From positions 1 through 28,175 of IMG/VR virus record IMGVR_UViG_3300022188_000047: a stretch of DNA of 28,175 nt. One strand, written 5' to 3'. A program made the position numbers and the translations under genes. How positions within the stretch are numbered: the stretch's first letter is position 1; each line of letters begins with the position of its first letter. Source of the stretch: a virus. The notes beneath the pieces were generated by a model that did no database searches, was not told the DNA's origin, and saw only the letters and a list, made by a program, of their open reading frames with translations. Positions 17,335-25,402 of the stretch are shown here, in pieces.

Positions 17335-18907
17335 TTAATTTACCAAAATATCAAATAACAACCCTTTTGTATTTGTCCAAGCCTTAAATTCCCAATCCAA
17401 TCTTTGATGTATTGAAACACCAGACATTGGACCAGCTTCGTTTGAACCGCTTTCTTTTTGAGCTGGAACTTGAGTAATGTAAACTTTTCCGTAAGTGCTT
17501 TTGCAAATACCTACGTGAAATAAGTTTTTAACACCACCAAATAGATGTCCTGAAGTATGAGAATTAGATACATAATGATCTACTCCCATATAATGAAACC
17601 CTTCTACAAGTCCATTCTTCAAAACATTATCAGCTGTATTAAAACCATTCGCTTGCGCAAATTGTTCTAATTTCTCAAAATCTTCCGCTCTCCATAGAAT
17701 AAATATCCCATTTCGTTTTGCAAGTTTTGTTCCATTTGCCTCTCTGATTTCTCTTTTCAAGCCTGTTATAATATCTCTGATATTAGTAACAGCAACATCT
17801 ATGTTTCCTGCTGACCCGCCAATAGCCGAATTATCAAAATTCGTCCACATAGCGTGATTTGCAAGCATATCTGTTTCAACATATTCATTAAGAATATCGC
17901 CTGACAATTCTGCCATTTCCATTTGCTTTACATATCTTGATTGTGCTAAATCAGCGTAATCAATATATACGGGCCAAACCATTGATTGGTTTATCGTTAC
18001 ATATTCATTAGTGACAGCAAAATCTTGATGAGTAAAGGCTGAACCTCTGGTATGAGATTGCGCGGATGGAGTAGTAGACATATAAGGATTATTAAAAACC
18101 CTACCGTCTGTATATTCCACTTTGCAAATTTCTTTCCAGTTTTGTGGGTAGTTTAATCTCTCTTGGAGTTTAACTGCCCAATCTTCTGCATACTTTTTTG
18201 TTACTACCCTAAAATAGGGCGGAGAAAACACTTCGGATTTCTCTCTTCATCTTCTTTTAATTTTTTGAGGATGGACCACAACTATTATATTTTATGTCAT
18301 ATTTTTTATGACAACTTCTACATAATGGTGTATAGTCTTTTAGTTCGCGTGTATAAGAATGGTCTTTGTTTGACCAATCGTTAGCTTATTTTCCGCAATG
18401 TTTACATTTACAATTTTTAGCTTTACCTAATTTAGTTTCAATCCATTTATGAATTGCACCAACAGTAGCTAAATTTCCTTTCATTAAGTTCGGTCTATCT
18501 TTACCAAGCCAATATTTTGCATTGTTCTTTTTTACCTTAGCTTTTGTTTCTTCTGATAATTTTCTACCTTTCATCCATTTTCCAACTTTAGATTTTTTAC
18601 ATCCTTTACTTATTTTCTTTTTTGTTTCTTCAGATACTACGCGTGTATATCCTTTGACAAATTGTCCTTTTTTATTTCTCATATATTGCCATTCTTCTGC
18701 ATAAGTCAAAAAATTAAATTTTAAAGTTCAATTATAATGAAGTTCAGACTATCGCTTCTTTCTTTTTCCCATAATTAGAAAGCTTCTTCGCTTAGTCGTT
18801 CAGGCTAGCTTTACCCTTGCCCCTTGTTATCCCTTGAATATAGGACCTCCAAGTCAATCAGAAGAAGTTTATAGTTGCCTATGCTACTAAACAACTGTAT
18901 TTCCCAT
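17335..18907 (-). CDS. Major capsid protein, interrupted by a group I intron (exons 18907-18890 and 18192-17335)
   Basis: Exon 1 is only 18 bases, encoding MGNTVV; exon 2 encodes 285 residues starting YAEDWAVKLQERLNY. The spliced product is 291 aa, with both exons joining on codon boundaries. The sequence (FTHQDFAVTNEYVTINQSMV, AELSGDILNEYVETDMLAN, GVDHYVSNSHTSGHLFGGVK) has the composition and order of an HK97-fold coat protein. It follows the scaffold gene and precedes the adaptor. A naive caller would start exon 2 at a GTG at 18231 and add 13 intron-coded residues (MFSPPYFRVVTKK). P1 and P10 pairing define the splice sites. Exon 1 start: the only in-frame ATG after a TAA; no close Shine-Dalgarno. 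Confidence 0.8.
18193..18889 (-). ncRNA. Self-splicing group I intron in the capsid gene
   Basis: Minus-strand elements seen directly: the 5' exon end AGTTGTT pairs with the guide GGCAACT (18873-18879), giving the canonical U-G at the splice site. Guide GCATA (18880-18884) pairs with the 3' exon TATGC (P10), and the intron ends in G (18193). P3 is CTTCTTC (18861-18867) with GAAGAAG (18783-18789). P7 is GACTA (18793-18797) with TAGTC (18747-18751) in the typical CGACTA ... GATAGTC context. P8 is CTTTCT/AGAAAG. The endonuclease frame lies after the P7 3' strand. Length is 697 nt. Splicing is inferred from known group I rules. Confidence 0.9.
18257..18709 (-). pseudogene. Intron-borne NUMOD3-HNH homing endonuclease with an in-frame stop
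   Basis: The frame begins around MRNKKGQFVKGYTR (ATG near 18682; open from 18709) with NUMOD3-type repeats (SEETKKKISKGCKKS, LSEETKAKVKKNNAKYW), then CKCKHCGK and a TAA at 18386-18388. Reading on in the same frame gives ANDWSNKDHSYTRELKDYTP and LCRSCHKKYDIKYN, the rest of a normal HNH domain (second Cys pair and His), to a stop at 18257. The single nonsense codon removes the catalytic part, so the endonuclease is probably dead, while the intron can still splice. A sequencing error or readthrough is the alternative; TAA ends other genes here, so it is not recoded. Confidence 0.8.
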
Positions 18908-23275: not shown

Positions 23276-25402
23276 TTATCTTGCAGGATTTGTTTTTGCC
23301 TCCCTATGAAATATTGGGATTGTATCTAAAAAATCCTGTTTATTAATAATTGGTGCTAATGATATTATACCATAACGGATTGCATCCATACAATCACTTA
23401 AATAATGATCTGGTTCGTTCAAAACTTTTTCCTCTTTATCTGTCTTCCATAAATAATTTTTATATGCTTTTATAATGTTTATACTCCTTTTCGTCACACT
23501 AATTTTCTGTTCTTGAACCACTCCAATACTCCATTTAACATAAGTTTCTTTTGTGCCGAAATTTTCCTTTCTTTTTTTTGCTCCGATTATATTAATCCCA
23601 TAACTTCTAATTTCGGCTATACTTTTGGGTTCAGCACTATCAGCAATAGTTAAAGTATAAGGTAAATTCTTTAATATATCCGCTATTGGTTTATTTAGCA
23701 ATCCTTTCTGATAACATATTTCATCTATTATATATCCGCCATTATAATAATATATTGCTACAATAGCTGTAAAATCTACGCTATACCCAAAATCTAATCC
23801 ATATCGTTCTAATCGTGCCTCGTGCGGTATTTCATCAATAATTTTCCAGTTTTTATAAATTTTCCGCTCCATATTGTGCGGTTCGCCTAACCATTTATGC
23901 TTATATAATCCCGGTCTATTTTTTTTGTCATCTTCTATCTCTTTTAAAATAACATCAGGCATCATCCCATATTTTATTGCTATATCGTAATTGACATTAA
24001 TTATTAAAGTGTCGGGTCTTCCCTCTATTACCAATCTATTATGCACTGGGTCTTCTTCTAACAATCTATTATAGGTATATATTATTTTAGATTTTTCCTT
24101 TCTTACTGTTGGTGTTAAAACTTCTATACTTTTGGCACTGATTGACTGTGCCTCCTCACAATTATGAACTAATATTCCATTTGCAAAATAATTATTATTT
24201 ACTTCAACTTCAAGATTGTAGACATAATTTCCTTTATCACTAAGTCTGAGTTGTTCAATATCTCCTTGTTCCTGTATCTCAACACTGTCCACCCCAGTTT
24301 CTTTAATATCCGATTTTTCTTTTTGTCTTGTTCTCTCCCTATTAGTCCAGTATGAGAGCCACCATCGCATTCTACTGCTAACATATAATAAACATTTGCT
24401 AAATCTACCTTGTAATTTGTTGGAATACCCTTTTCTCTTCCTAGTTCTTTCGGCATAACAATCAATTCTCTCCACCAACCTCTCCCTAATTTCTTGTATA
24501 AAAATTGTTGTGCTTTTGTATAACCACGACCATTTCCACCTAAAACTTTTGGCTTGTGCCCAATTTTCTTTAATGTTTTCCCCATTTTTTCTCTTATCTC
24601 CTTGTTGTCCATTGGGTTGTTTATTTTCATTCTCTCCGATGCCCTTCTTTTCACACAATCCCAACAAAAAATTCCACCATTTTTTACATATTTTTGTCTT
24701 CTCCCGTGAGTGTTCATCTCTATTTCTTCTCCACAACCACCCAAACAGGGTGCTGTTTTTGGTAAATTTAATTTCTTCATAAACATTGTTTTTAATAGTT
24801 AGGTCTTTTAATGGAATATATCCACTTTCAGTAAAGACAGGATGTTCTCCTGTTCCTATTATATACCTGTCCCCATACAATGTCAATAATTTGTATAATT
24901 TTAAAGGTGCTTTTGTTTTAGAAATCTTTAACACTTTTCTATATTCAATTTTATTCAATTTATGATTATATGATTTTATGTAATCCCCAATCTTTATTTT
25001 TTCTATCGGCTTTTCATCAACAAGTGTGCCAGCAATGAAACACCAAGCTATGTCAATCCCCTCAATAGATTTAATACTTTGCTCATTATTCCATAATCCT
25101 TTAAATATAAAGTCCGAACCATTTATTTTATTAACTATTGAATTATTGGTTATATTAAAATCTGCTAAACCATATAAATTAATTAATTCTGATAATAATT
25201 GGTGTGAACTTTCTGCTATTGATGATTGAAATTCTCTAAAACACGCTACTCTCGTCTTTTTTTCTCTTGCTTTAATTAATAAATACCTTGCTACTGTATG
25301 AGATTTGAGCGAAAATCTTCCGCCAAAAATTGCCGCCTCTCGCCAATTATCATTGAATATGGGCTTATATTCAATCGGTATATTAATTATTTTATTTTTC
25401 AT
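23276..25402 (-). CDS. terL: Terminase large subunit containing an intein
   Basis: A 708-aa precursor; removal of the 294-residue intein leaves 414 aa, normal for PBSX/Terminase_3-type subunits. ATPase: Walker A-like GGRFSLKS (27-34), Walker B IDIAW|CEEAQ (split by the intein after residue 120), and coupling motif IIYTYNR (440-446). RNase H-like nuclease: LDFGYSVDFTA (D537), TIADSAEPKS (D588) and HYLSDCMDAIRYG (D670/D673), all three acid sites present. It packages DNA into the prohead through the portal, encoded downstream. It overlaps the small-subunit gene by 11 bases. Without splicing the Walker B would be destroyed, so splicing is needed for function. Confidence 0.9.
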   Translation of the reverse strand: MKNKIINIPIEYKPIFNDNWREAAIFGGRFSLKSHTVARYLLIKAREKKTRVACFREFQSSIAESSHQLLSELINLYGLADFNITNNSIVNKINGSDFIFKGLWNNEQSIKSIEGIDIAWCFIAGTLVDEKPIEKIKIGDYIKSYNHKLNKIEYRKVLKISKTKAPLKLYKLLTLYGDRYIIGTGEHPVFTESGYIPLKDLTIKNNVYEEIKFTKNSTLFGWLWRRNRDEHSREKTKICKKWWNFLLGLCEKKGIGENENKQPNGQQGDKRKNGENIKENWAQAKSFRWKWSWLYKSTTIFIQEIRERLVERIDCYAERTRKRKGYSNKLQGRFSKCLLYVSSRMRWWLSYWTNRERTRQKEKSDIKETGVDSVEIQEQGDIEQLRLSDKGNYVYNLEVEVNNNYFANGILVHNCEEAQSISAKSIEVLTPTVRKEKSKIIYTYNRLLEEDPVHNRLVIEGRPDTLIINVNYDIAIKYGMMPDVILKEIEDDKKNRPGLYKHKWLGEPHNMERKIYKNWKIIDEIPHEARLERYGLDFGYSVDFTAIVAIYYYNGGYIIDEICYQKGLLNKPIADILKNLPYTLTIADSAEPKSIAEIRSYGINIIGAKKRKENFGTKETYVKWSIGVVQEQKISVTKRSINIIKAYKNYLWKTDKEEKVLNEPDHYLSDCMDAIRYGIISLAPIINKQDFLDTIPIFHREAKTNPAR
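24161..25042 (-). mobile_element. Intein in the terminase Walker B site
   Basis: Precursor residues 121-414. Block A is CFIAGTLVDEKPIEKIKIGD with Cys1; block B is IGTGEHPVF with Thr and His; block F is YNLEVEVNNNYFANGILVHN ending in the His-Asn pair; and Cys is the +1 extein residue. All splicing residues of a class 1 intein are present, so it should be active. The segment between blocks B and F (about residues 210-390) has no LAGLIDADG or HNH motif in the terminase frame. It is the shadow of an endonuclease encoded in another frame. Insertion at a catalytic motif is usual for inteins. Confidence 0.93.
24199..24786 (-). CDS. EDxHD/Vsr-like homing endonuclease nested out of frame within the intein
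   Basis: A 195-aa frame, shifted +1 from the terminase and fully inside the intein. Order: a zinc knuckle (CLGGC at 14-18, CWDC at 41-44), a NUMOD3-like DNA-binding segment (RMKINNPMDNKEIREKMGKT, 52-71), then a PD-(D/E)XK/Vsr-like catalytic region with YKVDLAN, AVECDGGSH (E139, D141, H145), D154 and GWTVLRYRNKEIL, matching the EDxHD/DUF559 type. It starts at ATG 24786 or 24780, just after block B; no Shine-Dalgarno, but the upstream bases are A-rich as for other genes here. It ends within block F. It is presumably translated separately and would drive intein homing to terminase genes. Confidence 0.85.
   Translation of the reverse strand: MFMKKLNLPKTAPCLGGCGEEIEMNTHGRRQKYVKNGGIFCWDCVKRRASERMKINNPMDNKEIREKMGKTLKKIGHKPKVLGGNGRGYTKAQQFLYKKLGRGWWRELIVMPKELGREKGIPTNYKVDLANVYYMLAVECDGGSHTGLIGREQDKKKNRILKKLGWTVLRYRNKEILNNSDLVIKEIMSTILKLK

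Follow-up and report, generated by a model that had tools for sequence, protein, structure and literature searches.

The results of our analysis indicate that a homing endonuclease gene (HEG), carried within a group I intron of a viral capsid gene (MCP), is directly preceded by a close copy of the spliced MCP exon junction, and that a related freestanding HEG, located beside a related MCP gene, is preceded by a similar copy. Based on sequence comparison, the resemblance of the copy to the exon is judged to be genuine and beyond chance. The reading that we prefer, to which we would assign a probability of roughly one half, is that the copy is an operator that resembles the homing site and overlaps the putative promoter of the HEG, by means of which the enzyme would repress its own gene.

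In the window, i.e., the entire 28,175-base stretch of viral DNA that was analysed, the MCP gene lies on the minus strand, as do all features described below. Exon 1 is ATGGGAAATACAGTTGTT (18890..18907), encoding MGNTVV, and is read directly from the sequence with the help of relatives uninterrupted at the site. Exon 2 (17335..18192) begins with YAEDW, matches the major head protein family phrog_267 (E value 2e-11), and had 20 close relatives in the first search. The intervening 697 nt (18193..18889) end with the omega-G and are recognised from uninterrupted relatives, Rfam and alignment. The splice junction was set by MCP relatives that are uninterrupted at this exact site, such as L003 (NTVV/YAEDW, where the stroke marks the junction), and which encode contiguous NTVV/YAEDW or NTII/YAEEW. 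The MCP gene of L210 carries AATACAGTTGTTTATGCAGAAGATTGGGCAG without interruption and shares the 16-mer of the window junction; around its position ~828, about 30 bases are identical to the window sequence on the two sides of 18890/18192, exactly over the intron site, while the two MCP proteins are 48% identical.

The intervening element has the conserved core, the P7 helix and the P1 guide of a group I intron, and on these sequence features is assigned to that class. The Rfam model RF00028 (Intron_gpI) was matched over its full length at 18900-18726 with 26.3 bits (E value 3.9e-5), a score that falls short of the curated 50-bit threshold. By inspection, the helices P1 (GTTGTT with GGCAAC), P7 (GACTA with TAGTC), and P3 (CTTCTTC with GAAGAAG) can be formed. 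The internal guide (18874..18884), read directly from the sequence, includes the P10 strand GCATA at 18884-18880 and the P1 3' strand GGCAAC at 18879-18874, the latter pairing with the exon end GTTGTT. A blastn comparison of this region of the window with phages yielded no match.

A pattern search using the R and S elements revealed introns of this type in no fewer than 119 viral stretches, and nearly all of them have about 50-140 nt between S and the GTAACA tail. Sixty-five compact introns, selected for a short tail, were aligned with the flanks of the window intron and share 60-74% identity with it. The P9 5' strand of the window intron is CTTCAT (18737..18742; sequence, and alignment with introns that have no L9 insert) and its partner is ATGAAG (18245..18250; alignment with related introns). 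Between them, in loop L9, lies an insert of 472 nt (18260..18731), made up of the leader and the endonuclease gene, on both sides of which the related introns align. Because gene and leader were inserted in L9, the exon-like sequence is the leader of the inserted gene and not an old splice junction. That it might be an ancestral junction was first suggested by the core ending upstream of it, and this was rejected by the L9 alignment. The introns of L057, L096, L099, and L102, which have an unusual tail distance, were read individually and have no L9 endonuclease; a pattern search for other introns with an endonuclease in L9 found none, and a search with a tail-plus-exon pattern gave four matches, all due to chance.

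The inserted gene (18257..18682) encodes a protein of the NUMOD3-HNH type, as indicated by the NUMOD3 motif (PF07460; 21.1 bits against a cut-off of 20.4, E value 3e-4), a match to a PHROG homing endonuclease, and an HNH-type C-terminus. Its homologues start with MRNKKGQF at their own ATG, which in the window is located at 18682. The frame is continuous apart from an in-frame TAA (18386..18388), found on reading the frame, that intervenes ahead of the HNH histidine region. The window HEG thus has no intact HNH catalytic part, and we regard it as a decayed member of its family, in this assembly a pseudogene. Recoding of the stop is unlikely, because TAA is the usual stop in the window genome. 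The closest relative over the whole protein, that of L022, was considered since its start resembled an MCP start; the MCP of L022 itself differs, and this candidate was dropped.

The copy of the exon lies immediately upstream of this gene. An earlier note on this DNA had pointed to the near identity of 18703-18687, which reads TATGCAGAAGAATGGCA, with the 3' exon start at 18192-18175, which reads TATGCAGAAGATTGGGCA, and our reading confirms it: 11 identical bases are followed by one mismatch, TGG, one deleted G, and CA. The 17-mer (18687..18703), read directly from the sequence and subjected to match tests, is the proposed operator. When the preceding base is included, the copy is TTATGCAGAAGAATGG (18704-18689) and matches the spliced MCP junction T/TATGCAGAAGATTGG at 15/16 positions; the match to the intronless junction T/TATGC is one base longer than that to the genomic 3' splice site.

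It had also been suggested that the copy might serve as an alternative 3' splice site, fusing MCP exon 1 to the endonuclease. The components of this proposal are present, given that TATGC of the copy is as able as the real 3' exon start to pair with GCATA of P10, and that no stop interrupts the frame where MGNTVV would join YAEEWQYMRNKKGQF. The absence of the terminal G, already noted at that time, is equally evident: the base before the copy is T18704, so that a U would take the place of the omega-G, while the genuine 3' splice site is preceded by G18193 and alleles uninterrupted at that site exist. Moreover, the copy is situated in L9, upstream of the P9 3' strand, P9.1 and P9.2, which related introns retain, and the relatives of the HEG begin at their own ATG. 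As the TAA interrupts the reading frame ahead of the HNH catalytic region, a fusion with exon 1 would not make an active enzyme. In the second virus described below (L156), the MCP start codon and exon 1 come only after the copy, which cannot be a 3' splice site there. Splicing into the endonuclease is, in our estimation, very improbable.

A second possibility is that the similarity arose by chance in the AT-rich promoter of the HEG itself. When the whole window was scanned by local alignment with AT content unweighted, the result was much less striking, with many comparable local matches; the window alone is thus suggestive and would not settle whether the copy is real. In addition, the leader of L031, an endonuclease gene from elsewhere, has TTTGACTTAT in common with the window leader. 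Against chance stand the shuffling tests, which for the window alone give p 0.0002-0.003: comparison of the 50-nt leader with the spliced junction gave p 0.0002-0.0006, and that of the whole insert or the whole intron with 40 nt of exon gave p 0.001-0.003. Searched across the rest of the window, the exon 16-mer finds its best match in this copy (15/16), against 11/16 at most on the plus strand. Of 435 control 16-mers, not one reached 15 in its own locus.

The decisive evidence, also against chance, comes from L156 (IMGVR_UViG_3300023245_000930), which encodes an intact HEG as a freestanding gene upstream of a related MCP start. The two HEG products share 57% identity over the N-terminal 65 amino acids, and their C-terminal parts differ. 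The L156 leader contains TTATGCAAAGGATTGG, which matches the exon 16-mer at 14/16 positions, or at 16/18 once the match is extended to GTTTATGCA..GATTGG; the p-value is < 0.0002 against the junction of the window and 0.0015 against its own exon. This copy was first spotted by eye, and a table of 23 leaders served as a systematic check. It comprised 21 genes with an MRxxKGQF-type start (one of which, that of L243, is probably not an endonuclease) as well as L218 and L220. Matches of 15/16 and 14/16 were found in the window and in L156, respectively, and the other 21 leaders (19 of the MRxxKGQF type, L218, and L220) did not exceed 10/16. Among the leaders compared, the copy is confined to the two related endonucleases associated with the MCP gene, and it has the same register in both. 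There are two positive cases, whose leaders may be homologous, and the p-values of the window and of L156 are not independent. With a second MCP-associated gene carrying the copy, chance becomes an improbable explanation.

According to the earlier note, its reading would give way to chance similarity if RNA data showed no alternative junction and relatives no such duplication. The leader of L156 bears a comparable copy; in 14 related introns, the inserts located in P6 hold none (best p 0.01). Likewise, the endonuclease genes located in L9 and in P6 of the MCP introns of L220 and L218, which encode different proteins, have no copy in their leaders (p 0.42 and 0.28, respectively); that of L220 is a second insertion in L9 of an MCP intron, with a different endonuclease. 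These absences weigh against the operator reading. A repeat of the exon in L168 and L171 (14/16) lies within an upstream open reading frame rather than in an endonuclease leader and was set aside. Similarity to the promoters of L031 and L023 was also considered as the origin of the motif, and at p 0.005 and 0.046 among about 20 tests was unconvincing.

In both genes the copy fills a 17-nt spacer between promoter-like hexamers. The window leader can be written as TTGACT-TATGCAGAAGAATGGCA-ATATATG and that of L156 as TTGGTT-TATGCAAAGGATTGGTG-TATACT-TACAGC-ATG, that is, TTGACT-17-ATATAT and TTGGTT-17-TATACT-6-ATG. In the window, the -35-like hexamer TTGACT (18704..18709; direct sequence, TTGGTT being its L156 counterpart) is good and the -10-like ATATAT (18681..18686; direct sequence), which overlaps the start codon, is poor and apparently decayed; it was not called by a promoter scan. 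In L156, the -10 is good and the -35 is weak (3/6), which makes the assignment of the promoter imperfect. In nine of the 23 leaders, a -10 is separated from the ATG by 5-8 nt; shuffled leaders gave a mean of 1.9 such cases and a maximum of 8 in 1000 shuffles. On sequence grounds, NUMOD3-HNH genes thus appear often to carry their own promoter close to the ATG, and this arrangement suggests leaderless transcripts from that promoter. TATAAT-like -10 elements at 5-8 nt before the endonuclease ATG are seen, for example, in L023, L025, L026, L031, L156, and L218.

The mechanism that we propose would proceed as follows. The exon-like copy would mimic the target of the enzyme, i.e., the uninterrupted MCP exon junction, and the NUMOD3-HNH enzyme would bind the copy via the same module that recognises the MCP junction. 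Binding at the copy would then shut off the enzyme's own promoter, as is the case for I-TevI in the T4 td intron. We infer that the MCP junction is the target of the enzyme, that the enzyme binds the copy and that it represses by binding, the target being deduced from the position of the elements. The unit of leader and gene found in L9 of the window's MCP intron is now decayed: it carries a nonsense codon, and its -10 is damaged. What is observed is a sequence like the presumed homing site directly upstream of the HEG, at 15/16 in the window and 14/16 in L156.

The principal rival reading, also raised in the earlier note, is that the copy is a scar without present function, left when the HEG brought target DNA along in a break-repair or capture event. 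The similarity itself, and its association with the HEG, stood up to examination, and the idea that target DNA moved together with the gene comes near to what the comparison revealed. The copy matches the intronless junction (T/TATGC), as expected for target DNA, and in each of the two phages the copy is followed first by the endonuclease gene and then by the MCP exon. There may also be a precedent, as Loizos, Tillier and Belfort in 1994 reportedly found intron sequences recognised by the intron-encoded endonuclease and proposed an invasion model. As in that work, an exon-like sequence lies beside an endonuclease gene in an intron; unlike it, the copy in the window is present on the 5' side only, is located inside the insert, and is common to a freestanding gene. 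Preservation of the copy is harder to reconcile with a scar. The coding DNA of the two HEG N-termini is 59% identical, and 45% identical at third positions, so that the leader match has been kept better than neutral sequence; a functionless copy should erode at such a level of third-position identity, unless it arose twice. The two leaders differ from each other at three positions, and each resembles the exon more than it resembles its counterpart. Furthermore, although the genes have diverged, the limits of the similarity are almost identical in the two, and a promoter spacer is filled by the copy in either case. Since the same 16-base register is found in two diverged genes, between promoter-like hexamers, we favour an operator over a scar, which we consider a serious contender and the less probable of the two.

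The operator reading has its closest parallel in phage T4. The operator of I-TevI in the td intron is located directly upstream of the gene, resembles the homing site and overlaps a late promoter, and the operators of I-TevII and I-TevIII are putative (PMC2988022). In the window, too, an endonuclease gene encoded in an intron has a sequence resembling the presumed homing site immediately in front of it, at its putative promoter. In contrast to I-TevI, which is a GIY-YIG enzyme, those of the window and L156 are of the NUMOD3-HNH type, the L156 copy belongs to a freestanding gene, and the operator proposed here is a candidate. As a positive control, the td leader was scored in the same manner and gave 13/20 ungapped (p 0.19), where PMC2988022 counts 15/20; the present match (15/16) is therefore stronger than that of the proven I-TevI operator.

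With respect to origin, L156 and the window resemble the states before and after capture of a HEG by an intron. At ATGGCT/AACACA, 12 nt upstream of the window site, the MCP gene of L156 is interrupted by an intron of this type that carries no endonuclease gene; as this intron had no Rfam match at E 0.1, its assignment rests on alignment to its relatives. The introns of the window and L156 are not each other's closest relatives, which argues for a parallel and not for a direct lineage. Collaborative homing and the composite origin of mobile group I introns have been described (Bonocora and Shub 2009, summarised in PMC2988022). In keeping with that model, L156 has a freestanding HEG beside a gene with an endonuclease-less intron, and the window has a homologous HEG inside an intron; in contrast to it, the two introns are 12 nt apart and the target specificity is presumptive. 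The 5' end of this MCP gene family is a hot spot for introns, where a stretch of about 12 nt holds three or more insertion sites (window, L156, L175, L218, and L220), and the associated endonuclease genes are in L9 (window and L220), in P6 (L218), freestanding (L156), or absent (L175). Elsewhere in the window, the large terminase subunit (708 aa; 23276-25402) contains an intein, with Terminase_3 at residues 25-121, Intein_splicing (PF14890; E value 4e-11) at 136-414, and terminase sequence again thereafter.

Taken as a whole, the wider proposition that NUMOD3-HNH enzymes autoregulate by target mimicry independently of T4, and that the unit moved from a freestanding position beside the capsid gene into L9, is tentative and on balance unlikely. 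In the literature examined, target-like operators are described for T4 intron endonucleases only. If the proposal is true, there would be a second nuclease family with such an operator, implying that a target-binding endonuclease readily turns into its own repressor. The copy would then offer a handle for predicting, from the promoter of an uncharacterised endonuclease, which site that enzyme targets, and the pair formed by L156 and the window renders the route from freestanding gene to intron capture testable.
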